64,000 bases of DNA, taken from positions 3,000,975-3,064,974 of the forward strand of contig NC_036457.1 of NCBI RefSeq assembly GCF_002775205.1. The letters are read 5' to 3'. The position numbers and the translations under genes are program-made. This document shows positions 7,694-36,774 of the stretch, in pieces (the stretch's first letter is position 1; every line of letters starts with the position of its first letter). Source of the DNA: Xiphophorus maculatus. Its lineage: Eukaryota; Chordata; Actinopteri; Cyprinodontiformes; Poeciliidae. Below the pieces are notes generated by a model. The model worked only from the letters and a program-made list of their open reading frames with translations. It had not been told where the DNA came from and did no database searches.

Positions 7694-8479
7694 CTATTTC
7701 TTGTTGACTGTAGAATAAAGACAGTCTGTGTCAGAGGAGACTCCAGCAGAAGAGGAAGAAGTTCCCACAGTGCTGTAGATCACAGTTTCCTGGACCTGGA
7801 AGGAAAAATCACATTCATTATGATGTACAGGGTGTATCAAAGTCTTAACAATCCAATTTCACATCAAATTTAAACAAGTTTGTGACAATTTTCCTCCAGA
7901 AAGGTAGTCTGTGTTAAATGATTTTGCTAAAAGAACTCAAATTAAATTATTCAAATACATATCTGCTGGTTCTTTAATGCACTGAAATACTCACTTTGCC
8001 TGTTTCCTTTTTGGATTTCTTGAAGTTGATGGTGGCATAAGACAGATCGTCCTCTGGTTCAGTCTGGACAGAGAAAAAACAACTTATTAAAATTTGACCT
8101 AATTAAAGCAGACAGGATTTAAAAATAAAGTTCAATTATTTCAAGTCATTGAAATAATTATATGTGGTTTCTGTTCAAACTAAACACAACAGTGTGCATT
8201 GATCTGTATTTACTGTTGTACAGGTCTTTGTACTTGTTTAGACTATTTATTTAGAATATTTTCTATTATGTTCAATAATCTTTTGACAACCAATCGACCT
8301 CATGAGGATCAAAGCCTGGTTGTAGAGCGGCAGATCCTCATTTTTAGCTTTACTTGTAGTAGGGTTAGAATTGAACAGGTAATGCTTATAGTTAGCATTA
8401 AACGCAATGACTTAAATGAATGCAAGCCACTACAAGGTCCTGATATGGGAAGAAATGCAAACGTGTGTGTGTGTGTGTG

Positions 8480-8575
<96 letters not shown>

Positions 8576-8851
8576 GTGTGTGTGTGTGTGTGTCCTTCAA
8601 ATAGAGGACCACTTTCACCATTTTGACCAACAAAGGGAGATCCTTTGTGGAAATTGATGACCTTTTTCTGCCCCTCACGTTAGATACTACTTCACTCTGG
8701 GTATAGAGATATGGTGTGAGTTAAGTTACAGTAAAGGTTATTGTTAGAAATAGACTAGTAATGGCAAGGGGTAGAAAACTTTTTTGGGTTAGGCATAAAT
8801 ACAATGACTAAAATGAATGGAAATCAATATAAAGTCCACAAAGATGTGTGG

Positions 8852-8918
<67 letters not shown>

Positions 8919-11117
8919 CCTACTGTATTTTGACTGGTTTCTGGAACAGCTAGGCCCACTGAAGACTCTGGGTTCAGGTCCTGGTTTGTTGCCACTTTAT
9001 GTTGGGGAACCTTAGATCAACAAATTCACACAGTAACTGTTGTCTGTTTGTTTTCTGGTGACTGTGACTCCTTTGTGTTCAATTCCCTTTTTGTGACTAA
9101 ATGAATTCCTTGATCTTGTTTCAATATTTAATGAACCAAATTGCAGCACTACTTCTTATCCCTGTTAGACTCTTTCCAGTGTAGAAGAAAATACAGATCT
9201 AAAATCAAACCTATACTTAATGTGTCAATGTTGAAACTCACCATGCTGCCTTCAATTTGTGTTTTATTCCCTGAAACAACACAGAAATGGACTTATATGT
9301 TCACAATGGTTTGTATTTTCTAAACATATATATCAAGATGAAAACAGCTTCAATAATGAATGTATTTTTTGAATTGATTTAAACACATTTAACATTATCA
9401 GATCATTTTTCTACCAAGTCACACCTACTGTTGCTAACGCTAACGCTCTACTACTTGTAGCTAAAGACATGAAACATAAAAATTGAAATGTAAATGTAAC
9501 TTCTAGGTCTTTCAGGTAATAGTTTGGAAATGAAAGATTCATCTCTGAATTATCTCACCTTTAGTTTTGTTCCATATGATGATCACCAGGACAGTTATTA
9601 AAACCATCGCTAAGCATAATGGAGTAAAAATATACCACCATGGAAAACCTAAGAAGATAATTCATTACATTAAAAACAATGTAATTCCATAAAAACAATG
9701 TTGTTACTCAAAATGTGAACACAGTTAATTGGTCTTAATGTACAAGATCACCGTTACTGATGAGAGAGAAGGATTAGTCATTGCATAAATTGGTTTAAAT
9801 GTTTTATTTCCAATAATGTCAATTACTTGATGTAAGATCTGCCGAGTTGGTTGTTTTTTCTACTCCTTTAGTTGTTTTTCTTTGATTTTCTCCTTCAGAA
9901 ATAAAAAAACATAAAAAAGATTTAAAAATTAGGATAAACCTAGCTTAATGATGTCGTATTCACTTCAATTACGGTAAGTTTTTTTTATACGGCACCAATT
10001 CACAGCAAATCACGTCTTAAGGCGTTTACATATAATAATTTAAATTCAACATAATTAAATTCCCTGACTTGAAAAATGAAAACTCTACCTTGTTGTTTAA
10101 CTTCCTTGTTGCTCCCTGCAGATGTCCAGTGATGTGTTGCTGTTGGTGTTGACTGGGTCACCTCTAGTTCAAAGAAAGCAACAGTAAAAATCTGCTTCCT
10201 GTTAACTTTACAGCAGTGGAAACTCACTTCCTTACCTGAGGACTGAAGACTGAAGGGGATCAGCTGAACTGCTTTAGTGACTGAGTTTGTGACTTTACAT
10301 GTTAGTGACGGATAAATGTCTAATTTCTGATGAGATGTTGGAAATGTCACAGTGGCAGAGCAGGAATGTTGGTATATTTTCATATCTGAGGGTTTTTCCT
10401 CTTTCCCCTCATAAAGCCACTTCACCTCATGTAGACAGTGATCATATTGGATCACAGAGCAGAACAAGGCGACTTTATCTGGTTTCTCCTGCTCAACAAC
10501 TGATGGAAAAAGAGAAATTAAAGAGAAAAATACTATAGAATTTAAATTACATGATTACTGTATTATAAATGCAACTTTACAAGTTTAGTTTTTACATGAT
10601 GTAAATACTCACTAGTAATTACAGATAGATACACAGCAAAGTCATGTAGTTGTCCTGATATTGTCCAACGGCATGTGTACCGACCAGCATCATCCTCTGT
10701 GACTTCATGTAGAAGCAGAGAACCGTTTGCTGTAACACTCAGTCTGTCTGATATAGTTTTCATTTCTCTGTGAGAATTTCCAAGTTTGATCAGTGTTCTT
10801 ATTTCAGATAAATGTTTATCATTGATGAACCAAATAGTTTCATCAGATTTATCATGTGTGTCTCTTCTGTTTCCACAAGGCAAAGTGACTTCATTTCCAT
10901 CTCTGACAGTAAGGAAGGTTTGCTGCGTCTCAGTTTGTGCTGTTAAAATGCAAAATAAAATTTCAACAAAATGTGAAAACACTAAGATGTAATGACTACC
11001 AGCTAAAATGATAAAACATAGCTGTTTCAGTGAAAATCTGTCATTTTGATCCTTACCTTTAAACTGAAGCATGAGGATCAGAAGTAAAACCATTTGAATC
11101 CATCTGAAAGCAGCCAT
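7694..11117 (-). CDS. Ig receptor gene C: V, C2, stalk, TM, tail with two ITIMs
   Basis: Eight exons in frame give 338 aa: signal 11117-11057, V 10939-10613, C2 10499-10236, stalk 10163-10089, TM 9648-9559, linker 9270-9242, tail-1 8063-7995, tail-2 7795-7694. V has LPCGN and YTCRW with a DDAGRY motif. C2 has four Cys and the WLYEG motif. TM (about 247-267) has no charged residue. The tail holds LSYATI (Tyr291) and VIYSTV (Tyr312), both canonical ITIMs, plus LYSTV (Tyr332). This predicts SHP-1/SHP-2-type phosphatase recruitment at the plasma membrane, which is inferred from consensus. The ectodomain and promoter are nearly identical to gene D, but TM and tail are of the gene H type. The intron between linker and tail-1 contains two (TG)n arrays. 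Confidence 0.85.
8380..8593. repeat. (TG)n microsatellite with a dispersed repeat at its left edge
   Basis: About 130 bp of nearly pure TG (8463-8593), preceded by a segment (…AATGACTTAAATGAATG…) that recurs before the second TG array at 8.8 kb. The two are probably copies of one dispersed element. Long Cys-Val or Thr-His reading frames across it are artefacts. Confidence 0.9.
8760..8917. repeat. Second copy of the (TG)n-associated repeat
   Basis: A segment with AATGACTAAAATGAATG followed by (TG)n at 8845-8917. Same order and similar sequence as the copy at 8.4-8.6 kb. It lies in the same intron of gene C. Confidence 0.8.
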
Positions 11118-11206
11118 GGTGCCTTACTGCTCTGTTATTTTCACTAATGATTCAGTCTCTAACGTTGGTTCTGCTTAAAAATACATTCATGCCGTTTTCA
11201 GTTGCA

Positions 11207-11216
11207 TCACTTCCTC
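11207..11216 (-). promoter_or_regulatory. ETS/PU.1-like site upstream of gene C
   Basis: GAGGAAGTGA on the minus strand, 90 bp upstream of the gene C ATG. It is a strong match to the ETS/PU.1 core and is conserved in gene D. Confidence 0.5.
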
Positions 11217-11478
11217 TCAGTGACTGTGCCCTGTGAGTTTAACCGTTTATACTTGATAATTTAGCTGCAGATGTCGATGTTTACAAACTCAGGATTCGGT
11301 GATGACACTAAGGGAGAAATGGAGAAACGACTTTAATGTCTGAGGTATTTTAATCATTATTTTTACTCTAACACTAAATCCAGGAAGCAAAACTTTGATC
11401 AGCAAAAGAACTGAAGAAAATGATGGTGTAAATATTCCTTGTTGTATTTAGAAGTAATGAAGAGTGAAGAGTAAACTC

Positions 11479-11620
11479 ACCAGAATTATTCTCCTGTTCG
11501 CTCTGCAATGTTCTGAAGAAGTAAAATTACCGAACACAACTGAGATGTTTCTCCTCTCATGTTTGTTGCTTCCTTGTTTTAACTCAAGTATTTTTTTCTG
11601 AGAACTGAAGGGGAAGTGTT
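11479..11620 (-). promoter_or_regulatory. Candidate noncoding first exon of gene C
   Basis: A conserved block ending in AATTCTG|GTGAGT on the minus strand (donor at 11480/11479). The ATG exon has a matching acceptor at 11132 (AACAG). The same donor recurs upstream of genes D and E. The 5' limit is not defined. Confidence 0.4.
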
Positions 11621-11800
11621 ATTCTGAGAATGTGACAGTAGCAGCAGAGGAGATATATTTATCCACCAATGATCAGCAGCATTTGTGGCTAACACATTGA
11701 TGAGTCATTTAAGTTTCCAGGACAACTCACCGGAGAGATGTTGACTTGCTTTTATCTGAGTTATCAGTTTAAGTTACAAAATACACGTCAAAATTGCTCC

Positions 11801-12879
11801 ACAAAATGTGATTAAGAAGAACATTTCTTAAAATAATGTCTCTATTTTTTAGTATTTATTTAAACAGTAAAAATGTAAAAAAAATAAAGATAAAAAAATC
11901 AACATTTACATTAAGAAATTCACTTTAATTCAATAAAATAAAAAAGAAATATATTGACACTCATATTATCAAGTTACAGATTTAAAATACATATAGAAAA
12001 ACATTTAAAAACAATATAAAGGAACTTTAAGTAAGAAACGGGACTTTTATGAATCAATGGAACTCAACTGTGCTGCCACCTAGTGGAACCTAGGTGTAAT
12101 TCCAATAGTTTATATATTTATTTTATTTCTTATTTGTTTATTGTGATCTTTCCTCTGTGATGTTTGATTTTTTTTCTCTAGTTCCAAAAGATTAACATAG
12201 TTAAATAATGAAGGTATTAAATATTTGTTATAAATGTTATGAAGGATTTTCACTCAGAACAAAGAAGTAAACAATAAACATAAAAATACCTTCAGGATAT
12301 TGATATTTGTAACAACTTGACTGTATTAATTTCTGCTGGATTTTTTTTCCAATAAACAACAATGAAATCATTTTTAATTGATAAACAATTGCAATATGAA
12401 CTTTCTCTGATTTTTTTTTACCACAATAACCTCATTAACTGCTACATCTCCCCCTGGTGGTCAAAGAGAGTCATTTATAGCAAAGACTTGATTTGTGGTC
12501 AAATTGAGGAGTTTGGACTGCATTATTACATTACAATGAGTTGCACATTTTTTCAGTTTAAAAATATATTTAAAAAGTTTCATGTTGATTCTTGTTTATA
12601 ATTTCATTCATTGTTAAGATTTTAACTCCCCAAATATTAAACAAATGATGCAGTAAGGAATGTTGTGGGGTCAGAAGCAAAACAAAAAGTTTTCATAAAT
12701 GAAGTTTCAGGCTAAAGCTGATAAGAAGAGATGTAACTTTTTAAGATAATCCGTTTTTCTATGATCATCTGCTGGTGTTAAATATAATGAGATACTCATC
12801 ATAAGCAGTGCTCTCATTCCTGCTGGAAGCTGATGCTGAAGTTGTTGATCAGTTCTTCCTGACAGCAGCACAAATCTCT
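11801..12879. other. Intergenic between genes C and D; no gene seen
   Basis: Very AT-rich, with poly-A/T runs. It includes the likely 3' UTR of gene D next to its stop at 12880. Short phrases (…CACCTAGTGG…, …CCCTGGTGGTCA…) recur in the flanks of gene E, which indicates older duplication of intergenic DNA. Confidence 0.5.
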
Positions 12880-15358
12880 TCAGTTTTCATAAATATCTAC
12901 ACCTTCATCTTCATCTTCATGGTTACACTCCTGCAGAAAAAAAGCATATTCTGGGTTAAAACTGGGCATATAGTTGGTTCTATGTGACACACTGATATTG
13001 CTCACTTATTCACTCTCATCATCATGACCAACTATCAGACCCTCCTGCTAAATAAATGGACAGCTCTAAGCTCCCACCATCTGTTGGTATTCAGCCAGGT
13101 ACCAGGTGTGCTGAAGAGGAAACATCTACAGGTTGCAGGACAGCAGCCCTCAAAGTTTGAGACCACTGTTTCATTCAAACTGCAGAAAATGGGTGTTATC
13201 ATACATTTGTGAATCAGAGTAGCTCATCCAGCACATCTCACACATTCTCAGTCATCAGCAGAAACCATCCACTTCAGTGGATTAAGATTATTCTCACACC
13301 TGATCGTCTGATAGACTCAGTTGGATTTGGGAACAAAATTGCAACATTTGTTACATTTTCAGGTACTGAGGTTCAATTTCATGAGACTCTGTGTCAAACA
13401 AACCAAACAGTTTGAAAAACCCGTCCCCCTCCTCCCTTGTTGTGGCACCAAGAACCACTGAGGGAAACAAAACGCAAACCTCTTAAAAAGCCACTGAAGG
13501 CAACTTCCTTCTTCATAAAATGTAAATGAACTGGAGTGGCATCCGACGCTAATCTTTGGTAAAAGACCATGAGCCATTTCTCCCGCTAGAGCCAGAAACA
13601 CTCATTTCATTTGGTTATATTTACCCAGAATGCCCTGCACCATAGTCGGCTTAGCGTTTACATATGCATTTGAACGCACCAGATTTTATTTCAACTGAAC
13701 CAAAACTTAGGGATGGACCAGAGTTTGATTATGTTAACAAATTTAGATCTTTACAATTATTCATTCTTCCTGCATCCAGAAATCGTCTCTAACAAAATAA
13801 TGGCTGAATCCCAGTAAGAATCAGACCATCATAATCAAGATTTGTGCTTCAATAGTCAATTATCCTCATGTGATGGTTGATTGTTTTATGTTCTTTTCTA
13901 AATCTGCTGTTGAAATTTCAACCCAACTTAAGAGAAACAATGTTCTTGTCAGAATAAAAACTTTAAAACATCGACTTCTTACTAAACTAAACAGCAACAT
14001 ATTTAAATATGTAGTTATTATACTTACCAGGTTTTGCTCATTTTGTTTTTTATTTCCTGCAGAAAACAACAGATTTTATTTGAATTTCAAAAGAAAAAGT
14101 TAATATTTTCCAGTAGGTTTAATGTATTAAGCTTCATCTGTGAACTTTCTCACCTTTAGTTTTCAACCAGAGGTTGAGAATAACGACCGATATTACCAGA
14201 GCTGCTAAACCCACAGATATAATGATCCATCTCAACAAATAGAAAATATCTGAAAGCAGGAAAATAACATTTCCTCGTTATTCTAAATTAAGACATAATT
14301 AAATTCCCTGACTTGAACAATGAAAACTCTACCTTGTTGTTTAACTTCCTTGTTGCTCCCTGCAGATGTCCAGTGATGTGTTGCTGTTGGTGTTGACTGG
14401 GTCACCTCTAGTTCAAAGAAAGCAACAGTAAAAATCTGCTTCCTGTTAACTTTACAGCAGTGGAAACTCACTTCCTTACCTGAGGACTGAAGACTGAAGG
14501 GGATCAGCTGAACTGCTTTAGTGACTGAGTTTGTAACTTTACATGTTAGTGACGGATAAATGTCTAATTTCTGATGAGACGTTGGAAATGTCACAGTGGC
14601 AGAGCAGGAATGTTGGTATATTTCCATATCTGAGGGTTTTTCCTCTTTCCCCTCATAAAGCCACTTCACCTGATGTCGACAGTGATCATAATGGACCACA
14701 GAGCAGAACAAGGCGACTTTATCTGGATTCTTCAGTTCAACAACTGGTGAAAATAGAAAAGTAACAGAGATGATACTGTATTAACTTAATCACTATTACT
14801 GTATTATAAATGTAACTTTACATGTTTAGTTCTTACATGATGTAAATACTCACTAGTAATTACAGATAGATACACTTCAAAGTCATGTAGTTGTCCTGAT
14901 ATTGTCCAACGGCAGATGTACCGACCAACATCATCCTCTGTGACTTTATGTAGAAGCAGAGAACCGTTTGCTGTAACACTCAGTCTGTCTGATATAGTTT
15001 TCATTTCTCTGTGAGAATTTCCAAGTTTGATCAGTGTTCTTATTTCAGATAAATGTTTATCATTGATGAACCAACTAGTTTCATCAGATTTATCATGTGT
15101 GTCTCTTCTGTTTCCACAAGGCAAAGTGACTTCATTTCCATCTCTGACAGTAAGGAAGGTTTGCTGCGTCTCAGTTTGTGCTGTTAAAATGCAAAATAAA
15201 ATTTCAACAAAATGTGAAAACACTAAGATGTAATGACTACCAGCTAAAATGATAAAACATAGCTGTTTCAGTGAAAATCTGTCATTTTGATCCTTACCTT
15301 TAAACTGAAGCATGAGGATCAGAAGTAAAACCATTTGAATCCATCTGAAAGCAGCCAT
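12880..15358 (-). CDS. Ig receptor gene D: V, C2, stalk, TM, short acidic tail ending YEN
   Basis: Seven exons in frame give 300 aa: signal 15358-15298, V 15180-14854, C2 14743-14480, stalk 14407-14333, TM 14249-14154, linker 14056-14028, tail 12930-12880. The ectodomain nearly equals gene C (five residue differences in V). TM (about 250-270; RWIIISVGLAALVISVVIL) and tail are of the other cassette: an Asp/Glu-rich stretch then VDIYEN at the C-terminus. Tyr298 is followed only by Glu-Asn, so it cannot be an ITIM, but Y-E-N fits the YxN GRB2 SH2-binding consensus (family knowledge, not shown here). A plausible reading is a paired partner of gene C with different signalling output. The 1.1-kb last intron could hide another exon, though I see none. 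Confidence 0.85.
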
Positions 15359-15447
15359 GGTGCCTTACTGCTCTGTTATTTTCACTAATGATTCAGTCTC
15401 TAACGTTGGTTCTGCTTAAAAATACATTCATGCCGTTTTCAGTTGCA

Positions 15448-15457
15448 TCACTTCCTC
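15448..15457 (-). promoter_or_regulatory. ETS/PU.1-like site upstream of gene D
   Basis: GAGGAAGTGA on the minus strand, 90 bp upstream of the gene D ATG. It is identical to the gene C site. Confidence 0.5.
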
Positions 15458-15719
15458 TCAGTGACTGTGCCCTGTGAGTTTAACCGTTTATACTTGATAA
15501 TTTAGCTGCAGATGTCGATGTTTACAAACTCAGGATTCGGTGATGACACTAAGGGAGAAATGGAGAAACGACTTTAATGTCTGAGGTATTTTAATCATTA
15601 TTTTTACTCTAACACTAAATCCAGGAAGCAAAACTTTGATCAGCAAAAGAACTGAAGAAAATGATGGTGTAAATATTCTTTGTTGTATTTAGAAGTAATG
15701 AAGAGTGAAGAGTAAACTC

Positions 15720-15860
15720 ACCAGAATTATTCTCCTGTTCGCTCTGCAATGTTCTGAAGAAGTAAAATTACCGAACACAACTGAGATGTTTCTCCTCTCA
15801 TGTTTGTTGCTTCCTTGTTTTAACTCAAGTCTCTTTCCTGAACACTGAAGGGGAAGTATT
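15720..15860 (-). promoter_or_regulatory. Candidate noncoding first exon of gene D
   Basis: Same conserved block and GTGAGT donor (exon end 15722) as in gene C. Probably a 5' UTR exon. Confidence 0.4.
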
Positions 15861-16010
15861 ATTCTGAGAATGTGACAGCAGCAGCAGAGGAGATATATTT
15901 GTCCACCAATGATCAGCAGCATTTGTGGCTAACATATTGATGAATGTCATTTAAGTTTCCATGACAACTGATGTTTACTTCCTTTTATGTGAGTGGTCAG
16001 TTTAAGTCAC

Positions 16011-16672
16011 AAAAGATGCATAAAAAACATCTCTGTTCTCTGTTCCAACTACAAATAAAAATATAAAGACAATATGAACGAACTGAAGCTGTAAATAACG
16101 TGATTGTTATTTTAATCCTGACCTTTACAGAGAACAATGTGCTTTGAATCAGTGAGAAATCAGTGTGCTTCCCCCTAGTGGAGCTTTGGCGTAATGACAA
16201 TGGATTCACATAAACAATGAAGATGTTAAAGTTTTGTTGTAATGGCATATAAAAAATAATTAAATCAAACTGATATTCTGTTTGAATAATAATAAAAAGA
16301 AAACACAAAAATGCCAATAGGATATTGATATTTTGAATAAAATGTCTGTGCTGGTTTCTGCTGGGTAATTCTTTCCCAAAAGCAACCAGAAAGCCACTTT
16401 CCAATTGACACAATCAAAAAGAATATGTAATAAACTTCCTCTGATGTTTAGACTAAAATATTCTACTCATTTATAGCAAAGAATTGATTTGTGGACAGAT
16501 TGAGGAGTTTGGACTTTATTATTAGATTACAATAAGTTGAACAGCTTTTCAGTTTTAAAATATGCTTAAAAGATTTTATGTTGTTTATATATTCATTGCT
16601 TGTTAAAATATAAGGGTGCACTGAGGAATGTTGTGGGATAGATGTTCAGACTTCCTCTTCGTCTTCATGGCT
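16011..16672. other. Intergenic downstream of gene E; no gene seen
   Basis: AT-rich, with sequence related to the 12.0-12.9 kb interval. It should contain the 3' UTR of gene E. Confidence 0.4.
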
Positions 16673-18797
16673 TCACTCCTGCAGGAACAGAAACATATTC
16701 TGGGTTAAACTGGGTTTGTCGTTGGTTCTGTTGTTTGACATCTTTTCTATCACCGTTATGACCAATGATGGGAGAGAAGCACATTCTCACCCTGATGTTT
16801 AAACTACAATAACATTATTAACTGGTAGATCGCCACCTGGTGGTCAGAGGGACCCTCCTACAAAATAAATGGACAGCCATAATCTCCCAAGATCTAAAAC
16901 GGATATTTTACAAACAAACAAACAAACTAGAGTTTGATTTAATCGGACTAAACAGGGCCGGTGTGAATGCAACCAACACAAGGTTCCCAGTAGAAAATTG
17001 TTCAAAGAATCAAACTATCGTTTCTTGCTTTTTCCTTTTCTATTGAACCTTTTGACCTGTTTGATTTCAACAATGTCAGCTATAAAAGTTCTTAGTTGGA
17101 CCAGGTTCTGGTTTTTATAGACAACAAAAGTTGTGAGGCAGAAATCTAACAATCTTTTTTAGACCTGTTGACATCTAAATCTTTACAACTGTTCATTTTT
17201 CCTGCATCCAGACATCGTTGCTAACAAAAGATTGACTGCATCCCAATGAAAATCAGACATTATCTCAACAACATAATCAAGATTTTTGCTTCATCAATCA
17301 ATCATCATCATGTTATGGTTGATTATTTAGTGTTCTCATCTAAATCTGCTGAAATTACTCAGCTTCAGAGAAAAAATAAGTTTTTATATACAAACAAACT
17401 TTAAAACATCGACTTCTTACTAAACTAAACAGCAACATACTTATTTAAATATGTAGTTATTATACTTACCAGGTTTTGCTCATTTTGTTTTTTATTTCCT
17501 AAAAAAAAAAAGATTTTATTTGAGCTTCAAAAGAAATAGTCCTTATGTCACACAATGTTTAATGTATTAAGCTTCATCTGTGAACTTTCTCACCTTTAGT
17601 TTTCAACCACAGGTTGAGAATAACGACCGATATTACCAGAGCTGCTAAAGCCGCAGACACAACGATCCATCGCAACAAACTGAAAATATCTGAAAGCAGG
17701 AAAAAAACATTTTCCCTTTATTCTGAATTAGAAGATAATTAAATTCCCTGACTTGAAAAATGAAAACTCTACCTTGTTGTTTAACTTCCTTGTTGCTCCC
17801 TGCAGATGTCCAGTGATGTGTTGCTGTTGGTGTTGACTGGGTCACCTCTAGTTCAAAGAAAGCAACAGTAAAAATCTGCTTCCTGTTAACTTTACAGCAG
17901 TGGAAACTCACTTCCTTACCTGAGGACTGAAGACTGAAGGGGATCAGCTGAACTGCTTTAGTGACTGAGTTTGTGACTTTACATGTTAGTGACGGATAAA
18001 TGTCTAATTTCTGATGAGACGTTGGAAATGTCACAGTGGCAGAGCAGGAATGTTGGTATATTTTCATATCTGAGGGTTTTTCCCGTTTCCTCTCATAAAG
18101 CCACTTCACCTGATGTCGACAGTGATCATATTCCAACACAGAGCAGAACAGAGTGACTGTATCTGGATTCTTCAGCTCAGTCACTGGAGAGAATAGAGAT
18201 ATTAGGAGAGAAAGCTGAGAGAAGATACAGTATTAATTACATGAGTACTGTAATATTTAAATTTCAGTTTTTAATTTACATGGTGTAAATACTCACTATT
18301 AATTATAGACAGATATGCTACAAAGTGTTGCTGTTGTCCTGATGTGGTCCACTGACAGTCATACCGACCGCCATCATCCTCTGTGACGTTATGTAGATGC
18401 AGAGAAGCGTTTCCTGTAACACTCAGTCTGTCTGATATAGTTTTTATTTCTCTGTGAGATTTTGGCAGTTCAACCAGTTTTGTTTCTGTTCTGTCCCTCC
18501 GATTATTGAAGATCCAGCGAGTTGGATCAGATTTATCTTCAGTGTCTGTCCTGTTTCCACAAGGCATCGTGATTTCATTTCCCACTCTGACAGTAAGGAA
18601 GGTCTCAGATTTTGCTGTTAAAATGGAAAATTAAATGTTCAAAAAGTAACAAGTAATGACTCATTTAAATGTATACTGCTAAAGTAAAAGATGGTTGTTT
18701 TTGTTAGAGGAAGAATCTCTGTAATTTGATACTAACCTTTAGACAGAAGTATCAGAATCAGAAGGAAAGAAATGTTAATGCATCTGAAGGCAGCCAT
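16673..18797 (-). CDS. Ig receptor gene E: V, C2, stalk, TM, tail cut by a stop
   Basis: Seven exons in frame give 282 aa: signal 18797-18737, V 18614-18297, C2 18183-17920, stalk 17847-17773, TM 17689-17594, linker 17498-17470, last 16678-16673. V has MPCGN and YDCQW and is clearly diverged from C/D. The C2 exon, the next intron and the stalk are nearly identical to C and D, a mosaic that suggests gene conversion. The last exon aligns to the gene D tail, but its second codon is TGA (TGT in D), so the protein ends ...NEQNLE without the acidic YEN motif. It is therefore a signalling-poor or decoy-like form, unless another 3' exon is used. TM (RWIVVSAALAALVISVVIL) has no internal charge. Confidence 0.8.
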
Positions 18798-19149
18798 TTT
18801 GCTTTTTTTCCTCCTTCTGTCAGTTATTTTCACAGATGTTTCCGTCTCTAATGCGGTTTCCTCTCAAACATTTACTCCTTTATAGTGGCCTAATTTCCTT
18901 TCTTGTATTTTTCGTCTTTTTTAATTTGGTCAAATAGTTGCAGAGGTTTATGCAATACCAATTATGTTGTCACTAGAAGAGAGAGCAAATAAAAATAACT
19001 TTTATGTTAAAGGCATTTTCGGTCAGTATTTTTGCTCTGACTCTAAACCCAGGAAGCATAACCTTGATCAGCAACAGAACCGAGGACAGAGACGATGTAA
19101 ATAGTCTTTGTTATATTTAAAGGTAATTGTAAGAGTGAAGAGTAAACTC

Positions 19150-21264: not shown

Positions 21265-23053
21265 TTACTGGAGTCTGTCTGACGCAGAAAGCACTATAAT
21301 ATTTTCGTACATCACTATACTTTCATCTTCTTTGTTGTCGAGTGTCTGTGGAAAACAAAGAACAGAGAATATTAAAACTGAGACCATCACTCAGTGAATT
21401 GCAGTATAAATGGGTCAAGTCACCAAGTCACTGAAATCTTCTGTTTTTTTTCTTTTATTTTTATTAATTTTTTTCCAAGTCTTTTATTTCAGCAACAAAC
21501 TTTCATGTATCATTGTAACAAGATATCCAATGATTTTAATACAGCTTGTGAGTGGTCATAATGTTATGGCTAACTTCTGGTTATTCTGTTTTTAAATTAT
21601 GCTGATGCAATAAAACATTTCATGATGTCACAGCTAAAGTTCAGAACACAGCTCTACTCAAACACCTCAAAGTGAACTGATACTCTATAAAAATTAAAAT
21701 ACAATAAACTATTTCAGTACATCTATCATTTCACTGTCCAGTATTTAAACTTACAGTGTCGTCATTCGTCTCTGATTTGTTTGCTGAAAGAATAAAGAGC
21801 AGACAGGACTTTAGTTTAAAGTATAAAAAACATTGATATTGTTTTTCTGTGAAATGTAAATGTTCTCACCTTTAGTTTTTGTTAATATGTTAACTGTAAC
21901 AACAGATATTATGAGAACTGCCAAACCCACAGACACAACGATTCCTCTCAGCAAGTATGGAAAGTCTAAACATAAATATATCATTAGAGACACAGCTCAG
22001 GTGAATATCCATGAATCAGGCAAAGATGTTTATGTCTACCTTGTTGTTCTGGTGGATTTTTCTTAATTGCATCTGCAGCGATAAAAAAATGCTGGAATTA
22101 GAATATGTTCCAGTGGATTTGGCTTTTTAAAGATTAGTGATCAGCCAGAAAACTGCAGCTCTGCACCGCCAGTTCAGGATAACAGAGAGGAGAAGGAAGG
22201 CAGCAGACTTACCTGTTTTCTTGACAGGAGGTGGACATTTGTAGCGGAAATGTTCCGCTTTTTCAGTGTAAGTGTTGGTGACTTTACAGGTCAGAGACTC
22301 GTATGGCTTCTGCTGACGCCCAGATGTTGAAAGCGTCATGGTGGCTGAGCAGGAAGGTGGTGAAATTTCAATGTCTGACAATATTTCCTTTTCACCGTCA
22401 TACAACCACTCCACCACATATCTGCAGTCTTCATACTGCAGCACAGAACAGTTCAAGACGACCTTGCCATTGACCTTCAGCTCCACCACTGGCAAAGGTT
22501 GAAATGTGAGGAAATAAATTGAGACATTAGCATCAAATGCTGTTCTAATCAGTTATTTTAAACTCAATAAGGTAAATTTGAACACTTACTGTCAATGACA
22601 GAGAGAAAAATATCTGCATCATCTTGTTTTCCTGAAACGTTCTTCCTGCAGGTGTAAAAACCGACGTCGTCCACTGTGACTGTCTTTATGACCAGAGAAC
22701 GGTCTGCTGAGACACTCAGTCTGTCAGATCTTCTGGTCACATTTCTGCTCATCTCTCTCACCAGGATCTCAGTTTCAGGTGATCTGAAGCCACTGAAGAG
22801 CCACTCAGTGGATCCAGCGTCACGCTGAGGATCGGATCTGTTCCCACAATGCAAAGTTATTTCATCTCCAGCAGTGACTGTGAAGAAGGACGGCTCTCTC
22901 CTAGTGGCTGCTGTGAAAACATGACAAATAATGCGTGAAATAAGAAGTGCATTCAGCTAAAGTAAGAATCTTCATAATGTTATGATTGTTACCTGTAAAC
23001 TGAAGCACCAGCATCAGGAATAAAGACATTTGTATCCATCTAACTGCAGCCAT
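21265..23053 (-). CDS. Ig receptor gene F: V, C2, short stalk, TM, ITIM-like tail
   Basis: Seven exons in frame give 298 aa: signal 23053-22993, V 22910-22590, C2 22488-22213, an 11-codon stalk 22072-22040, TM 21965-21870, linker 21783-21755, tail 21345-21265. V has LHCGN and YTCRK. C2 has four Cys and WLYDG plus an additional Cys in YKCPPP just before the membrane, free for an interchain disulfide. TM (RGIVVSVGLAVLIISVVTVNIL) is uncharged. The tail carries IVMYENI (Tyr285), which fits both ITIM (V-x-Y-x-x-I) and YxN. It is a probable inhibitory or adaptor-binding receptor. It is separated from gene E by about 2.5 kb and is the most diverged of the C/D/E/F group. Confidence 0.85.
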
Positions 23054-26131: not shown

Positions 26132-26166
<35 letters not shown>

Positions 26167-27308: not shown

Positions 27309-27672
27309 TGGTGAGGCAAACGCGGTAGACCCAGGTAGAAGTTAGAGATGATGGTTTAATGATGAAAGTAATCCACAATATAGTCCAACAACCAGGCAGC
27401 ACGGCTGAGCGGAAAGCCAGGGCTGAACGCCGGTAGCAACTGGAGGAAACGAATGGAAGAACAGCTGACGAGACAAATGACACTAGACAGAACTGACACT
27501 ACATACAACTAGGACCCGACGAGGAACAAAGAACACAGGTGGGGTTAAATACACAAAGGGTAATCATGGAAACGAGACACACCTGGGAACAATCAAGGGG
27601 AAGACAGGACAATACGGAGACTCAGAGACACAGAAACTCAAAATAAATACACAGAAAACTCAAATCCTGACA
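27309..27672 (-). mobile_element. Solo LTR (gypsy-like)
   Basis: On the minus strand it runs from TGTCAGGATT to CCTCACCA, so it has TG...CA ends. It contains a TATTTAA box and a CATTAAA polyadenylation-type signal near its 3' part. It is related to the LTRs at 34.4, 38.2 and 39.1 kb. The flanks TGTAG (27304-27308) and TATAG (27673-27677) could be a 5-bp target duplication with one change. No internal region is present. Confidence 0.75.
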
Positions 27673-28185
27673 TATAGAGTGCCATTTCAGCCAAAATTAC
27701 ATAGATTATTAATAAGTAAGTTATTGGCTTCTTTATTTATTTATTTCTGCCCATCCTTTTTCATTTTCCTTATTTGTTTCTGCTTCACTATGATAATGAG
27801 GGGCGGTGCCTTCAGGCTACAACTTCTCCCATTTGGTTGGTTAGCATCACACTGTACTTAGCTTCAAGAAAGATGGCGACCTACCACCAGTTTATCAGGT
27901 AGATGGAGCTTGGCAACTTTATTAGACATTACAACTAAATCAATGGAATGAAAAACACTTTAATTCTACTGAATACATGATTTGCTAGCATAAAAAATAC
28001 ATATATTACAATGAACTTTCTAAATGCATTAAATGTTTGAAGGATTGTGATCCAAGCACTGCAGAGAGGCAGGATGGGAGCAGATTAGGCATCAAACAAG
28101 CAGAAACGATCCAGAACAAAACATTCAAATCCACAACAAATGAAAGGAAAATGTTGCTTTTTCTTCTGTTATGGACAGCAGCCAA
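27673..28185. other. Intergenic; 3' UTR of gene H likely
   Basis: Noncoding DNA between the solo LTR and the gene H stop codon. No gene seen. Confidence 0.4.
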
Positions 28186-30910
28186 TCAGATCACAGCAGA
28201 ATGAGGCTGCAGAGTGCTGTAGATCACAGGGTCAGGGACCTGGAATAACACAATAATAAAAAACAACATAAAAAAATATTACTATAACACATTAGCCATA
28301 AATAGAGGTGTTAATATTTTAACATTGCTTTTCTGTGCATAGAGAAAGCAGATGGTAAATCCATGTTTATCAGCTCATGGATGATGAATATCACATTTAT
28401 TATAAAAATTGCACATGAAGCCAATCCATGAATCTTTTGCAATATTAAAACCTAAAGCTTAAGATCCAGTTAGAGAAAAGGTTTCAACATGGAAGACCCT
28501 AATATTTGTACATTACATCACAGCGTTTACCAAATGAATAAATTTATGTTGCATTTGAATCGCAGCACTCACGTTGCTTTTTGTCCTGGTTTCCATGCCG
28601 AGATTCATGGATGTATAAGAAGCATAAGGCTCAACCTGCTGAAGGAAAACAAAGCAAAGAGAAACAGTGATGTGATTTAAGCAAACTGTTTGCAAAAGAA
28701 TGTTGTTTTGTCATTGAAGGTTCTTCCTGTTGTTAAGAAGAGTTATTATTGTTATTATTCAGTTTGTTTCTGACGCGTCTGCCTGGAACAGACCTAACCC
28801 ACAAAACCATCTGATGTCATTCTGCCCTGTGTGGGTTTTTGATAAGACTGAGTCATCATGGCAGAGTCTGACATCAATTCCTCAGCTGAGTTTCATATCT
28901 GCGTGGCAAAAGTCCAAAGATGTCCATAAACCAGCAGTGGCTGAATGAGGTTTCAAAATGTCTAAATATGTCATATTTCTGTGGTGAAACTCACAGGTTG
29001 GTCTTCCTTCTGGTTTTTACTTCCTAAAAGAGAAAAGAGTTGGACTCAGCTATCATGCATCATAGTTTACTATCTACTGTTACTTTGTTATTTTTTATGC
29101 ACATCAGAAAAACAACAGTTAAAATATTAAGCAGCAGTTTGCATACATGGTAGTTGTTTTTAAATAAATCAGTAATTGTTCTCACCTTTAGTTTTTATCC
29201 ATCCAATGGTTACCATCACAGTTATTAAGAGTCCTGCTAACAACATGGACACAATGACAGCCCACCAAATCCACCCTGGTGGAAAGACGACACGTTATAT
29301 AGAATAACACCACTGGAAGAAAAACACCAACACATAGCATCTGTTTGAAATGAAAGGAATAGGCTGGCTTTGTTAAAGAGACATTCTGTGAGAACAACAA
29401 TAGGTCAGTAGGTCAGATGGACTCCGTCTTATATATCATTACAGCGGCTTAACAACTTTAACACAGATATATTTAGGCCAAGAAAACAATATAAAAACTT
29501 CAGATAGTGTCTTGTGCTGTAGACCTTCCTCTAATCTGTGGATATTTTTACTTTTCTACAAGTTCACTACTTTCTACCACAGCTAATGGAATCATTACTG
29601 CTAATATCTTCACTGCATTTCATTTATCAAAGAAGAACCCAGACTATACCTGTAGGTATTTAAACGTAATAAAATGCATCCCTACCTTGTGATTTTGTTT
29701 GATTATTTTCGGTAAATAAAGTTGCTGTTGGGGTTTCTGATGTTCGCCACCTGCTGCTGGTTGAAGATGCTGATTCAGTTCTGTCTGATTTGGTTAATAT
29801 TGAGTTAGTTGTTGCTGATGTAGTTGCTGTAGCTGCTGTTGGCTGTTCTGTAAATTAGGATTATGTTGTGTTAATTAAGCTTAAGTTGCATCATTATATG
29901 AAAACAATCAGCTGATTAGAGTAGATACATATAAAAAACTGAAATATTTCAAGTTTGAGAGAATGATGAATAATGTTTCATGTTCTCACCTCTTTTCTTC
30001 CCTGATGACTGATGGTTGAAGGTGAACAGCTGGTATTGTTTGGCTTCATATCCATCATGTACTTTGCACTTTAATAATTCATAAAACATTGAGTTCTGAT
30101 GCAGATGAAATGCTGGGATTGTGACAGCTGCAGAGCAGGAGGATGTTACATTCACATCTGGTGATATTTTCTCTTTCCCCTCATACAGCCACCACACTTT
30201 GTGTCTGCAGTATATGTATTGAGACACAGAGCAGGTAAAGGTGACTTTTCCATTGTTTCTTTGTTCAGTCACTGGTGAAGATGGAGATATTTAGAAAAGA
30301 CAACAAAAGAAATTCAGCTTCATTGTTGTATCACTAAGAGGAAGTGTGACTAAATACGAATGTGATGTAAATACTCACTGGTAACAACAGACAGATCAAC
30401 CTTCCTGAGGTGATTTGATCTGCAGTAGTAGTGACCAACATCCTCCATTGTGACGTTCTCTATGACCAGAGAACAGTCTGCTGTGACACTCAGTCTGCCT
30501 GACTTAGCGTTAGCCTTTTCTGTGAAATTTCCTTGTTCAAACAATGATACACTTCTGTTTCCTGGCTGACCTGACGTCCATGTGATTCTGTCACAGTTGT
30601 GTTTCTTCTCTGTCACATTTCCACAGGGTAAAGTGACTCCATCACCAGTTTTAACAGTGAAAAAAGCTCGCTGTTGTCCAGCTGTTGCTGCAGGGAAAAA
30701 TGGAACAAATAACTGCTGACATGTAGATTGAGAGGTAGAAACAACATAATATTTTTGGTCACAAATAAAACCCAATAAGTAATAAATACTTTCAAGTAAC
30801 ATATTTTACTGCACATCTGAGGATGGATATTTGTTAGATGTTTCCTTACCTGTGAGCTGAAGCATCAGAATTGTAAATAAAGTCTTAGAGATCCACTTAG
30901 AGGAAAGCAT
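28186..30910 (-). CDS. Ig receptor gene H: V, C2, mucin-like stalk, TM, ITIM tail
   Basis: Eight exons in frame give 349 aa: signal 30910-30850, V 30687-30379, C2 30271-29990, stalk 29847-29686, TM 29275-29186, linker 29023-28995, tail-1 28635-28573, tail-2 28239-28186. V has LPCGN, YYCRS and an extra Cys pair (HNCDR, ADCSL). C2 has four Cys and WLYEG. The 54-codon stalk is Thr/Ser/Ala-rich and probably O-glycosylated. TM is 90 nt and begins with a WIWW motif like gene C. The tail has ASYTSM (Tyr318) and VIYSTL (Tyr339); the latter is a canonical ITIM. Tail-1 could start one codon earlier (CAG repeat at the acceptor). Predicted inhibitory receptor. The V-intron-C2 block is nearly the same as in gene I, which has a different tail. 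Confidence 0.85.
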
Positions 30911-31507
30911 CGTGCTTCAGTGTCTTTACATCCACGACTGACTGAGTCTGTGAAGCAGCTTCCTTTTAAGCATGAAATCATTGCGTGTGTGTGTGTGTAT
31001 GGAGGTGTGACTTCCTCAGCAGCAGGCTGTTGTTTGTCACGTATTTAACTCCATTACACACTTCACAGGGCAGCAAGTGGCAGGGGCGGGTGAACAATCA
31101 TTACAAATATAGTAACCATAATAGAAACTTATTTTTCTCAATTCCACAATGCATGTTAATACCAATAACAAGATATGATGTTTAACTTAACTGCAAAGTA
31201 AAATGAAATCCTCGACACTCTCTGCGTTCTGTCACCTCTGGAGGAATCTGACTGTAACTCCGCCTTCTAAGTTATTGTTAGCTTTGATACTAATGTTACA
31301 TTATTGCAGCATCATCCTGATTTGTAAGTTGCTCTGGAGAAAAGTGTCTGCCAAATAAATGAACAAGAGCATAAACAAACCAGAAATTCGTGAATCAAAC
31401 ATGACAACACCTGATATATGTGCATAAATGTTAGGTCAGGCTCTCATCCTTATAATTCAGGTGTGTTGGAATATTTTTTTTATTGAAGTTTAAAATGGTC
31501 CCATTCA
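30911..31507. promoter_or_regulatory. Upstream flank of gene H with ETS-like site
   Basis: GAGGAAGTCA (minus strand, 31008-31017) lies 98 bp upstream of the ATG, next to a short (TG)n run. No other gene up to the LINE at 31.5 kb. Confidence 0.45.
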
Positions 31508-34410
31508 CAAATCATCCATCCATCTATCCATCCCTCCATTTTCTTCCACTTTATCCAAGGTCGGGTCGCGGGGGTAGCAGCTTCAGAAGGGAGGCCCAGA
31601 CTTCCCTCTCCCCAGCCACTTCTTCTAGCTCTTCCGGGGGAATCCCGAGGCGTTCCCAGGCCAGCCGAGAGACATAGTCCCTCCAGCGTGTCCTGGGTCT
31701 TCCCCGGGACCTCCCTCCCGGTGGGACGTGCCTGGAACACCTCACCAGGGAGGCGTCCAGGAGGCATCCTGACCAGATGCCCGAGCCACCTCAACTGGCT
31801 CCTCTCGATGTGAAGGAGCAGCGGCTCTACTCTGAGTCCCTCCCGGATGACTGAGCTTCTCACCCTATCTCTAAGGGAGAGCCTAGCCACCCTACGGAGA
31901 AAACCCATTTCGGCCGCTTGTAGCCGCGATCTCGTTCTTTCGGTCATGATCCAAAGCTCATGACCATAGATGAGGGTGGGAACGTAGATCGACCGGTAAA
32001 TCGAGAGCTTTGCTTTTTGGCTCAGCTCTCTCTTCAACCCCACCGGCCTGTACAGCACCCTCTTGACGGCAGACGCTGTGCCAATCCGCTCCCTTCTTCC
32101 CTCATTCAGGAACAAGATCCTGAGATACTTGAACTCCTCCACTTGGGGCAGGACACCCCCCCCTGACCCGGAGAAGGCATTCTACCCTTTTCTGGCTCAA
32201 GACCATGGTCTCGGATTTGGAGGCACTGATCCCCATCCCGGCCGCTTCACACTCGGCTGCGAACCGCTCCAGCGAGAGCTGGAGATCACGATCTGATGAA
32301 GCCAGTAGGACCACATCGTCCGCAAAAAGCAGAGATGCTATCCTAGGGCCACCAAATCGGATCCCCTCAACACCTTGGCTGCACCTAGAAATTCTGCCCA
32401 TGAAAGTAATGAACAGAATAGGTGACAAAGGGCAGCCCTGGCGGAGTCCAACTCTCACCGGAAATGAGCCCGACTTACTGCCAGCAATGCGGACCAGACT
32501 CTGACACCGGTCATACAGGGACCTGACAGCCCATATCAAAGGGCCCGGTACCCCATACTTCCGGAGAACCCCACACAGGGCTCCCCGAGGGACACGGTCG
32601 AACGCCTTCTCCAAGTCCACAAAACACATGTAGACCGGTTGGGCGAGCTCCCAGAACCCTCCAGGACCCTGCCGAGGGTGTAGAGCTGGTCCAGTGTTCC
32701 ACGACCAGGACGAAAACCACACTGCTCTTCCTGAATACAAGGTTCGACTATCTGATGGACCCTCCTCTCCAGACCCCTGAATAGACCTTGCCAGGGAGGC
32801 TTAAGAGTGTTACCCCTGTAATTGGAGCACACCCTCCGGTCCCCCTTTTTGAACAGGGGGACCACCACCCCAGTCTGCCAATCCAGGGAAACTGCCCCCG
32901 ATGTCCATGCAATATTGCAGAGTCGCATCAGCCAACACAACCCTACAACATCCAGAGCCTTAAGGAACTCCGGGCAGATCTCATCCACCCCCGGAGCCTT
33001 GCCACCGAGGAGCTTTTTAACCACCTCAGCGACCTCGTCCCCAGAGATTGGAGAGCCCAACCCAGAGTCCCCAGGCTCAGCTTCCTCAATGGAAGACATG
33101 TTGGTGGGACTGATGAGGTCTTTGACGTAGTCTGCCCACCGGCCCACAACTTCCCAAGTTGAGGTCAGCAGCACACCATCCCCACTATAAATAGTGTTGG
33201 TGCTGTACTGCTTCCCCCTCCTGAGACGCTGGATGGTGGACCAGAATTGCCTCAAAGCTGTATGGAAGTCTTTCTCTATGGCCTCTCCAAACTCCTCCCA
33301 CGCCCGAGTTTTTGCCTCAGCAACCACCCGACCCGCATGCCGCTTCACCCGCCGGTACCCATCAGCTGCTTCCGGAGTCCCACAGGCCAAAAAGGCCCGA
33401 TAGAACTCCGTCTTCAGCCTGACAGCATCCCTCACCAAAGGTGTCCACCAACAGGTTCGAGGGTTGCCGCCATGACAGGCACCGTCAACCTTGCGGCCAC
33501 AGCTCCAATAGGCCGCCTCGACAATAGAGGGATGGAACATGGTCCACTCAGACTCAATGTCTCCTACCTCCCCCGGAACATGTTCAAAGTTCTGCCGGAG
33601 ATGGGAGTTAAAGCTCCGTCTCTTAGGGGATTCTGCCAGACGTTCCCAGCAGACCCTCACAACACGTTTGGGCCTGCCAGGTCTGACCGGCTTCCTCCCC
33701 CACCACCGGAGCCAACTCACCACCAGGTAGTGGTCAGTGGACAGCTCCGCACCTCTCTTCACCCAAGTGTCCAAGACATACAGCTGCAAATCTGATGAAA
33801 CGATGACAAAGTCGATCCTGGTGTCCTGGTGCCAAGTGCACATATGGACACCCTTATGCTTGAACATGGCGTTTGTTATGGACAATCCATGATGAGCACA
33901 GAAGTCCAACAACAGAACACCGCTCGAGTTCAGATCGGGGGGCCGTTCCTCCCAACCACGCCCCTCCAGGTCTCACTGTCATTGCCCACTTGAGCGTTGA
34001 AGTCCCCCAGCAGAACAAGGGAGTCCCAAGGGAGGGGGTACTCTCCAGTACCCCCTCTAAGGACTCCAAAAAGGTTTGTAATCTGAACTGTCATTCAGCC
34101 CTTAAGCACAAACGAAAGTCAGGACCCGTCCCCCCACCTGTAGGCGGAGGGAGGCTACCCTCTCGTTCACCGGGGTAAACCCCAACGTACAGGCGCCGAG
34201 ATGAGGAGCAATAAGTATACCCACTCCTGCCCGACGCCTCTCACCGTGGGCAACTCCAGAGTGGAAGTATGTCCAGCCCCTCTCAAGGAGGCTGGTTCCA
34301 GAACCAGAGCCATGCGTCGAGGTGAGACCGACTATTTCTAGTAATAGAAATAATGCAACATGCCTCTCTGAACTGTCTGGTTGGGTCCTTCTGTCATTAA
34401 ATTGGGTGGT
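31508..34410 (-). mobile_element. Rex3/RTE-like LINE, 5'-truncated and frameshifted
   Basis: Read on the minus strand: part of an endonuclease domain (34.3-33.9 kb, with VGILIAP and VLTFVCA), a linker, a reverse transcriptase (33.0-32.2 kb, RQGCPLSP and catalytic LLFADDVVLL), a C-terminal region (RGRPRTRWRDYV) and a 3' tail of GATG/GGAT-type repeats at 31.51-31.54 kb. That tail and the protein style fit fish Rex3 (RTE clade). The reading frame shifts at about 34.1, 32.7 and 32.1 kb, so it is dead. Its 5' end abuts an LTR. Plus-strand frames across it are shadows. Confidence 0.85.
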
Positions 34411-34414
34411 GAAG

Positions 34415-34748
34415 TGGTGAGGCAAACGCTGAGGACCCAGGTAGAAGTGAGATGAAATGATGTTTTAATGAAGAAAATCCAAAACTCCAGGCAGCACGGC
34501 TGAGCGGAAGCCAGGGCTCAACGCCAGTAGCAACTGGTTGTACGAATGGACTGCAGAATACACACAACTGAACTGAACAGAAACAAACGACAAGGACCCG
34601 ACAGAGACACAGGTGACATTAAATACACAGGAGGTAATCAGGGAATGAGACACACCTGGGAACAATCAAGGGGAAGACAGGACAACACGGAGACTCAAAA
34701 ACACAGAAACTCAAAATAAACACAGAGAAAAAAACACAGATCCTGACA
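34415..34748 (-). mobile_element. Solo LTR (gypsy-like) next to the LINE
   Basis: TG...CA ends on the minus strand (TGTCAGGATC to CCTCACCA), homologous to the LTR at 27.3 kb. It directly abuts the truncated 5' end of the Rex3-like LINE. No clear target duplication was seen. Confidence 0.75.
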
Positions 34749-35101
34749 AAACATCTTTATTCAAAATTTTAAAACAATATTTTTTTCCCATAGGTGACTG
34801 ATTATTGACATACTTGAGTTATTATAGCCTTTAATACTTGTGGTTATTCATAACTCTTTTATCTAAAAGTATATGAACAACTCATAATGTTCTAAGAAAA
34901 CAATTTCTTCTTGTTTGACACAAATAAATGTTTTACAGCTTCCTTGTGTTTCAAACTAAAACAGTTTGTGATACATAAAGTCATATTTCATATTTGCTAA
35001 TGAATTTATTGCTTTATATTGGCTCTTCAATCGATCTGTGGAATCTGACGGAAGCAGAAGACTCTGGGATGTTTTCATATACCACAGTCTCTCCATGCTG
35101 A
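34749..35101. other. Short intergenic; 3' UTR of gene I likely
   Basis: AT-rich. On the minus strand, 35096-35038 encodes TVVYENI followed by an open frame to a stop, but it is out of frame with the canonical gene I splice path. Confidence 0.5.
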
Positions 35102-36774
35102 TCACGGTTTACCTGCACGACAAAACAGATCAGTATTTATTTTCCTTACATAACGGGCAGCATATGGTATATTTTCCAATTTCCATTTGTATATTCAGTA
35201 TAAACTTACTGTGTTTCTTTTCGTCGCATGTTTTGTTATCTGAAAAGAGAAACCAGACGACCTTAGCTGATTTCAGCTTCAACAGTTAAAATTTAGCTTA
35301 ATAATTACTTTTAGGAGCTTTCTTACATTGAATTTTCTCCCATATGGTTACTATGGCAACACACATTATGAGTACTGTAACACCCACAGACACAATGATG
35401 CATCTCAAGAAGGACAAATCACCTGGAAATGATGAAAAAAAATTACTTTAATTAGGCTTAATCTGAGAGAATCTGAAGCCAACCACTTGTAACGTTAATA
35501 TTCAAATATTCAAATATTAAATTATAAAATGAAAATATCTATTGCCTTGTTGTTCTGTTGGATTATGCATTGCTATTGCCTTTGTTGTTGCTTCGTCCCC
35601 TAAAAAGTGAATGAAATGCAAGAAACGATGATTTAATTACAGGATATCAGCACCACTAGTGGTCACTCTGATATTCAGACATTTATATTTTAAAGATGAA
35701 GAAAACTTAATACCTGGTATTGTCTCCCTGTTTCTTGTTGTGGATATAGGTTGAGTTGTTGTTACTGATGACTTTGGAGTTTCTCCTTTAATATAAATTT
35801 AAAGAATTGCAGCAAATCTTTTACCAACAAATAACTGAGCTACATTACCAAAAGCTACATTTAGAATAGCAGGTGTGATGTTACAATTTCAAATCCTTAA
35901 GATGTAAATGTGGAATTTGTTCTCACCTCTTTCCTCACTTGATGATTGATGACTGAAGGTGAACAGCTGATATTGTTTGGCTTCATATCCATCATATACT
36001 TTGCACTTTAATAATTCATAAAACATTGAGTTCTGATGCAGATTAAATGCTGGGATTGTGACAGCTGCAGAGCAGGAGGATGATACATTCACATCTGGTG
36101 ATATTTTCTCTTTCCCCTCATACAGCCACCACACTGTGTGTCTGCAGTATATGTATTGAGACACAGAGCAGGTAAAGGTGACTTTTCCATTGTTTCTTTG
36201 TTCAGTCACTGGTGAAGATGGAGATATTTAGAAAAGACAACAAAAGAAATTCAGCTTCATTGTTGTATCACTAAGAGGAAGTGTGACTAAATACAAATAT
36301 GATGTAAATACTCACTGGTAACAACAGACAGATCAACCTTCCAGAGGTGATTTTGTCTGCAGTAGTATTGACCAACATCCTCCACTGTGACGTTCTTTAT
36401 GACCAGAGAACAGTCTGCTGTGACACTCAGTCTGCCTGACTTAGCATTAGCCTTTTCTGTGAAGTTTCCTCGTTCAAACAATGATACATTTCTGTTTCCT
36501 GGCTGACTGAACGTCCATGTGATTCTGTCACAGTTGTGTTTCTTCTCTGTCACATTTCCACAGGGTAAAGTGACTCCAACACCAGCTTTAACAGTGAAGA
36601 AAGTTCGCTGTTGTCCAGCTGTTGCTGCAGGGAAAAAGTGGGAGACAATGTAGCAAATAACACATCTCAAGGTTGATCGAGATGTAGTTTCAGCAATTAG
36701 AAATGAGATATTTCCTTACCTGTGATCTGAAGTATCATAAATAAAGACATTGAAATCCATAGAAAGGAAGACAT
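35102..36774 (-). CDS. Ig receptor gene I: V, C2, stalks, TM, frameshifted tail
   Basis: Eight exons give 302 aa: signal 36774-36720, V 36624-36316, C2 36208-35927, stalk-1 35785-35714, stalk-2 35599-35546, TM 35422-35327, linker 35239-35210, last 35112-35102. V and C2 are very close to gene H, including the intron between them. Two defects are visible. Stalk-2 ends with a GC donor (AAG|GCAATA) where paralogues have GT. The linker exon is 30 nt instead of 29, so the last exon is read one base out and stops after three codons (SKP). The homologous tail in the other frame contains VVYENI (ITIM/YxN type). The product as modelled is a surface receptor without tail motif; an alternative acceptor (…CATGGAG|AG) would restore the motif. 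TM (RCIIVSVGVTVLIMCVAIVTIW) has no internal charge. Confidence 0.7.

Follow-up and report, generated by a model that had tools for sequence, protein, structure and literature searches.

The window, a 64,000-nt stretch at C15:3000975-3064974 of a 704-Mb assembly, sits inside a cluster of approximately 25 related receptor genes of the immunoglobulin superfamily (IgSF). Profile searches of C15:2962001-3137000 and C15:3325001-3353000 recovered 26 V and 25 second-domain exons of the family. Compared with the whole genome, the second-domain exon of gene D gave 22 matches, every one on C15, and the V exon of gene I gave 43, the majority on C15. V-set matches are numerous elsewhere in the genome (C13, C6, C14, C16, C19, C23 and others; 150 of 1632 candidates scored). 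Genes beyond the window are named by position, n marking those of the minus-strand array, p those of the plus-strand array and q two genes at 3.33-3.34 Mb.

Exons of genes C, D, H and I were placed with splice sites (Table 1). In C, D and H, open frames run across the signal-peptide, V, second Ig, stalk, transmembrane (TM), linker and tail exons. As an initial sequence-only reading had described, 90-nt TM exons with WW are present in C and H, and 96-nt TM exons with R-W/C-I-I in D and I. The linkers measure 29 nt (30 nt in I), and the last exons carry VIYST in C and H and YEN in D and I, out of frame in the latter. That reading also took all junctions between cassettes to be phase 1, which applies from the signal peptide through the linker; the junction after the 29-nt linker is phase 0. 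The tail of gene I appears frame-broken and its YEN tail uncertain: with a linker of 30 nt the last exon falls out of frame, and the simplest splice terminates after SKP without reaching the YEN frame. A weaker acceptor further inside this exon would be in frame and is a candidate. RNA folding around the last intron of gene I gave no signal (z 0.24).

Table 1. Features of the receptor genes, in window coordinates
Feature	Position	Strand	Remark
Gene A, V to tail	2373..3774	-	ACID class, VIYEEI tail; linker exon uncertain
Gene B	4216..4512	-	V domain match only
Gene C last exon	7694..7795	-	VIYSTV, ITIM fit
Gene C tail exon 1	7995..8063	-	LSYATI, ITIM fit
Gene C linker exon	9242..9270	-	29 nt
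Gene C TM exon	9559..9648	-	90 nt, WW, uncharged, ITIM class
Gene C stalk exon	10089..10163	-	splice-site placement
Gene C second Ig exon	10236..10499	-	splice-site placement
Gene C V exon	10613..10939	-	head group 1; V-set E 4e-10 for spliced protein
Gene C signal-peptide exon	11057..11117	-	splice-site placement
Head tract of C	10041..11781	-	95.8% to D 14284-16014, mosaic
Gene D acidic tail exon	12880..12930	-	ends DIYEN, stop
Gene D linker exon	14028..14056	-	29 nt
Gene D TM exon	14154..14249	-	96 nt, LLRWII, ACID class
Gene D stalk exon	14333..14407	-	splice-site placement
Gene D second Ig exon	14480..14743	-	splice-site placement
Gene D V exon	14854..15180	-	head group 1; splice-site placement
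Gene D signal-peptide exon	15298..15358	-	splice-site placement
Gene E, V to TM	17594..18618	-	head group 1, ACID class; tail exon after linker near 16678
Gene F, V to tail	21265..22905	-	ACID class, IVMYENI tail
Gene H last exon	28186..28239	-	VIYSTL, ITIM fit
Gene H tail exon 1	28573..28638	-	YASYTSM
Gene H linker exon	28995..29023	-	29 nt
Gene H TM exon	29186..29275	-	90 nt, WIWW, ITIM class
Gene H stalk exon	29686..29847	-	splice-site placement
Gene H second Ig exon	29990..30271	-	splice-site placement
Gene H V exon	30379..30687	-	head group 2; splice-site placement
Gene H signal-peptide exon	30850..30910	-	splice-site placement
Head tract of H	29981..30700	-	95.7% to I 35918-36637
Gene I last exon	35014..35112	-	VVYENI frame missed by straightforward splice
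Gene I linker exon	35210..35239	-	30 nt, frame-shifting next exon
Gene I TM exon	35327..35422	-	96 nt, FLRCII, ACID class
Gene I stalk exon	35714..35785	-	splice-site placement
Gene I second Ig exon	35927..36208	-	splice-site placement
Gene I V exon	36316..36624	-	head group 2; splice-site placement
Gene I signal-peptide exon	36720..36774	-	splice-site placement
Gene J, V to TM	40041..40979	-	relative of head group 2, ACID-class TM

The second Ig domain, initially labeled C2, may instead be weakly C1-like according to sub-threshold Pfam and profile matches. The exon of D matched the Pfam C1-set (E 0.0048) and that of I only Ig_3, both sub-cut-off, and a profile of 8 second-domain exons matched constant domains of IgE (E 0.0013) and of light chains (E 0.012). 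Four cysteines are invariant across these 8 aligned domains. The genes were compared with two named families, NITR by its J motif and I-domain cysteines and SIRP by its domain layout. The 8 aligned second domains lack the six-cysteine I-domain pattern, and a J or J-like motif (FGXGTXLXV) is absent from them and from 9 aligned V domains; the V exons of C, D, H and I end LSVVT or LSVIT. SIRPs comprise a V plus two C1 domains, and C, D, H and I each have a single second Ig exon. Two PDB searches yielded no name: for protein H there were 294 matches, nearly all of the 60 best being antibody chains, and for a V profile 624, with CEA, JAML, CEACAM1, contactins and pIgR among the 60 best. Judged by its predicted domains, the cluster is a teleost V plus C-like IgSF family, with no family name assignable from PDB matches.

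Other elements of the window include two exons of flanking non-receptor genes that can serve as synteny markers, a LIM-domain (CRIP-like) exon at 51287-51607 and a PNRC-motif exon at 60911-61324; a 17-bp tandem repeat (53522-53845) lies close to the former. LINE-like stretches between H and I (31480-34460) and beyond J (42710-44005) have 1.3 kb in common at 94% identity. They contain frames with motifs that we take to be reverse-transcriptase-like, although one 478-aa frame matched no Pfam family at E 0.01. The stretch at 38781-39088, which has long open frames on both strands, holds an imperfect direct repeat spaced mostly at 30 nt.

Two classes of membrane and tail exons

The genes carry one of two types of signaling end. 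ITIM-class genes have a TM exon of 81-90 nt with a mostly uncharged outer edge and a tail in two tyrosine-motif exons, the motifs including LSYATI, VIYSTV, VYYASV, IHYAKI and VTYSTV. Motif fits were judged against the ITIM consensus. Only a weak motif, LYCNI, was read by eye in n2976, and n2981 and n2985 were placed in this class by similarity to n2976, the TM included. The last exon of p3077 was not located by exon scan. ITIM-type tail exons are present in q3334 and q3343; the TM of q3343 is uncharged at its outer edge and that of q3334 was not found. Basic residues occur in 3 of the 12 ITIM-class TM exons of the tree, as Arg in n2976 and n2981 and as Lys at the edge in p3115. The Arg of n2976 and n2981 lies in the outer third, where n2985 has Cys, a possible one-residue switch.

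ACID-class genes have an Arg or Lys at the outer TM edge and a single short acidic tail exon. A basic residue near this edge was found in all 11 genes, n2988 and J being classed by TM alone, their tails not having been found. The TM exon is 96 nt in six genes and 84-107 nt in the remaining five, and its LLRxII motif presumably resembles Fc-receptor-gamma-binding TMs. Tail motifs are VIYEEI (A), VMYENI (F), LNYENI (p3121 and p3125), DIYEN before a stop (D) and VVYENI out of frame (I). The tail exon of gene E reads E and a stop straight after the linker, and the acidic tail of n3000, QRHMDDNEDTVVEENRE before its stop, is tyrosine-free, so the ACID tail tyrosine looks dispensable in some copies. 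A TM Lys and the tail SGDDEEDEL, ending in a stop, were read by eye in p3092, which is less certain as a gene because its V and second Ig exons lie 2.2 kb apart. Among ACID tails, those of A, F, p3121 and p3125 also fit the ITIM consensus, as does that of I in its unreached frame; the activating/inhibitory split is therefore less clean than apparent.

Discordant histories of heads and tails

The sequence-only reading had noticed that C and D share one head and H and I another, with one TM-tail cassette common to C and H and the other to D and I. This is borne out: at the nucleotide level the heads of C and D are 97% identical and those of H and I 95.5%, and in longer alignments C and D are 95.8% identical over 1746 bp and H and I 95.7% over 720 bp, both alignments ending shortly past the last common ectodomain exon. 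All four head/tail combinations are present, as had been claimed, and the pattern extends further, with five head groups each bearing both tail classes: C with D and E, H with I and J, n2997 with n3000, p3077 and p3085 with p3092, and p3129 with p3121 and p3125. A sixth joint, n2972 versus n2976, lies between two ITIM-class tails. Across the opposite-class partners C/D, H/I, n2997/n3000, p3085/p3092 and p3129/p3125, the heads are 95.5-99.5% identical and the TM exons 46-55%. For the three minus-strand head pairs dS is 0-0.06, versus approximately 0.8-2.4 in their TM exons, where values are near saturation and imprecise.

Discordant exon trees, proposed beforehand as a check, were recovered (AU p 0.003-0.016 for the TM exon and 3e-5 for V+C2), the TM trees resting on approximately 90 nt. 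Among 15 minus-strand genes, the V+C2 tree gave three mixed-class pairs, C/D (joined next by E), H/I (joined next by J) and n2997/n3000, and forcing the ITIM genes together was rejected (p 3.3e-5). The TM-exon tree of the same genes split by class (96/99), and forced groupings of C+D+E (p 0.0033), H+I+J (p 0.0032), H+I (p 0.0158) and n2997+n3000 (p 0.0016) were all rejected. On the V+C2 tree of 25 genes, 7 changes of tail class are required, at least 6 of them forced, and a single ITIM clade was rejected (p 1.4e-6). Shuffled labels needed a mean of approximately 8.5 changes, with 117 (or 111) of 500 shuffles as low, which indicates that tails are hardly clustered on heads. A single change suffices on the TM tree of 23 genes, at weak support (76/64). 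A p3077/p3085/p3092 TM clade was rejected (p 0.018); a p3121/p3125/p3129 TM clade was not (p 0.278), though their tail exons are plainly different.

The shared tracts have defined boundaries. That of C starts 664 bp upstream of the ATG and continues 48 bp beyond the stalk exon. The H/I tract is bounded inside the gene, beginning just ahead of V and stopping 9 bp beyond the second Ig exon, the signal-peptide stretch being just 76.6% identical (tract versus signal-peptide flank p 7e-14). C, D and E form a mosaic in which the stalk and preceding intron are identical in all three while V differs from E; the head of C is 94% identical to that of D versus 82% for E. The n2997/n3000 tract is 98% identical over 985 bp, with identical V exons. 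In four minus-strand tracts the 3' end falls at the last shared head exon or beyond it, but short of the TM exon. The bounded tracts (H/I, n2997/n3000 and the C/D mosaic) look like gene conversion. Those of n2972/n2976/n2981 and p3121/p3125/p3129 extend for kilobases through the neighboring gene's tail into the next head and look like unequal crossover.

No near copy of the C, H or I tails was found. Genome-wide DNA searches returned, for the tail of H, one candidate, itself; for that of I, besides itself, two TM exons at 76-79% (3 of 3 candidates scored); and for that of C (40 of 155 candidates scored), besides itself, matches confined to an intronic repeat. More sensitive comparison within the cluster gave just short, roughly exon-sized similarities for the three tails. 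Near-identical heads on old, divergent tails, for which no recent donor was found in C, H and I, indicate that heads moved or were homogenized. The initial wording, in which heads had been re-fitted with different tails, is not borne out. The broader idea of a modular paired-receptor-type set with exons swapped at the phase-1 ectodomain/TM joint is supported by the discordant trees, while its opposite signaling is predicted from motifs. A shared intron was considered as a sign of common ancestry of the tail classes, D 13308-13546 matching a tail intron of n2997; this stretch belongs to a dispersed repeat (40 of 1830 first-look candidates scored), and the idea was dropped.

Movement in the other direction, in which an old head gene acquires a tail cassette copied from another gene, predicts the discordant trees equally well. 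Tail exchange is described in macaque KIR (PMC7516082), and the p3121/p3125/p3129 group does not settle the direction. Against it, no recent tail donor was found for C, H and I, although a donor could have been lost, and the nearest other-gene TM exon is just 52-72% identical for C, H, I, n2997, n3000, p3092 and p3129, compared with 95-99% for heads. We consider tail movement improbable. All combinations would likewise arise if ancestral genes carried both tails as alternative 3' exons and each copy lost one. However, tblastn with four TM peptides, a search of limited sensitivity for 30-residue queries, revealed no other-class TM relic in the C, D, H and I loci, making such dual-tail ancestors very unlikely.

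Tandem arrays such as n2976/n2981 and p3121/p3125 make it natural to think of whole-gene duplication followed by very fast tail divergence, but the abrupt rise in dS at the joint and the grouping of TM exons by class across head groups leave this explanation scarcely credible. We give equally little credence to an assembly artefact. Near-identical tandem genes are prone to misjoining, and their heads might have been collapsed or misjoined; yet the pattern recurs in five head groups on both strands, splice sites are intact in C, D and H, and both the C/D and the H/I tract contain differences.

A probable paired-receptor cluster and its parallels

We conclude that this is probably an inhibitory/activating paired-receptor cluster in which heads have been recurrently copied onto two old TM-tail cassettes. 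As in paired receptors, near-identical ectodomains occur in neighboring genes with differing signaling ends, and by sequence one partner has an ITIM tail and the other a basic TM residue, the exceptions being the basic TM residues of n2976, n2981 and p3115 and the ACID tails that fit the ITIM consensus. Two old cassettes are present in this teleost V plus C-like family. One, with ITIMs and a mostly uncharged outer TM edge, probably recruits SH2 phosphatases; the other, with a TM Arg or Lys and a short acidic tail, probably recruits an ITAM adaptor, such as FcR-gamma or DAP12. From these motifs we infer opposite signaling by the two classes. Heads would be repeatedly copied among neighboring opposite-class genes by gene conversion and sometimes, probably, by unequal crossover, the 3' ends of the copied tracts lying at the last shared ectodomain exon or beyond it, but ahead of the TM exon. 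Each head would consequently tend to persist in both signaling forms; partners may share a common ligand, and matched heads may be under selection.

A more ambitious extension, which we regard as rather doubtful, is that of a head library with two standing signaling sockets, in which useful heads are actively kept in both ITIM and adaptor-coupled forms and the ACID class is itself dual. Its duality would lie in combining a TM Arg with a YENI-type motif to which SH2 partners could bind, a combination that invites comparison with chicken CHIR-AB receptors. Five head groups with both tails in one cluster amount to replicate natural experiments, and bear on whether matched heads are selected or a mere by-product of tandem recombination.

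Several known systems show partial likenesses. In primates, KIR likewise form a cluster of IgSF receptors, some bearing ITIMs and others coupled to adaptors, and in the macaque account their head- and tail-encoding exons are shuffled by recombination (PMC7516082). KIR heads consist of D0/D1/D2 domains, whereas the fish heads are V plus C-like, the likeness being one of description. Matched heads on an inhibitory and an activating gene are also seen in Siglec-11/Siglec-16, whose ectodomain exons are described as kept matched by repeated, fragmented gene conversion, in human over approximately 2 kb including upstream DNA (PMC5701461); that system is one gene pair, compared with five head groups here. 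The Xenopus CEACAM report describes homogenization of the ligand-domain exon between ITIM and ITAM genes (PMC5112662). There, activating forms carry ITAM-type motifs in cis and opposite gene orientation is stressed, whereas the fish cluster has a TM Arg or Lys and a uniform orientation within each head group. Teleost NITRs, described in medaka as mostly ITIM forms with a few TM-Arg forms partnered by Dap12, offer the closest fish layout among the systems compared, with clusters of genes encoding a V plus a second Ig domain (PMC2442602). The same source gives NITRs a J or J-like motif and a six-cysteine I domain, neither present in the cluster genes aligned here. A title-level search of the literature on teleost paired receptors with gene-converted Ig heads returned no title recognizably on this fish family. 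Head-matched paired receptors are known from mammals and frogs, and here they recur within one fish gene cluster.
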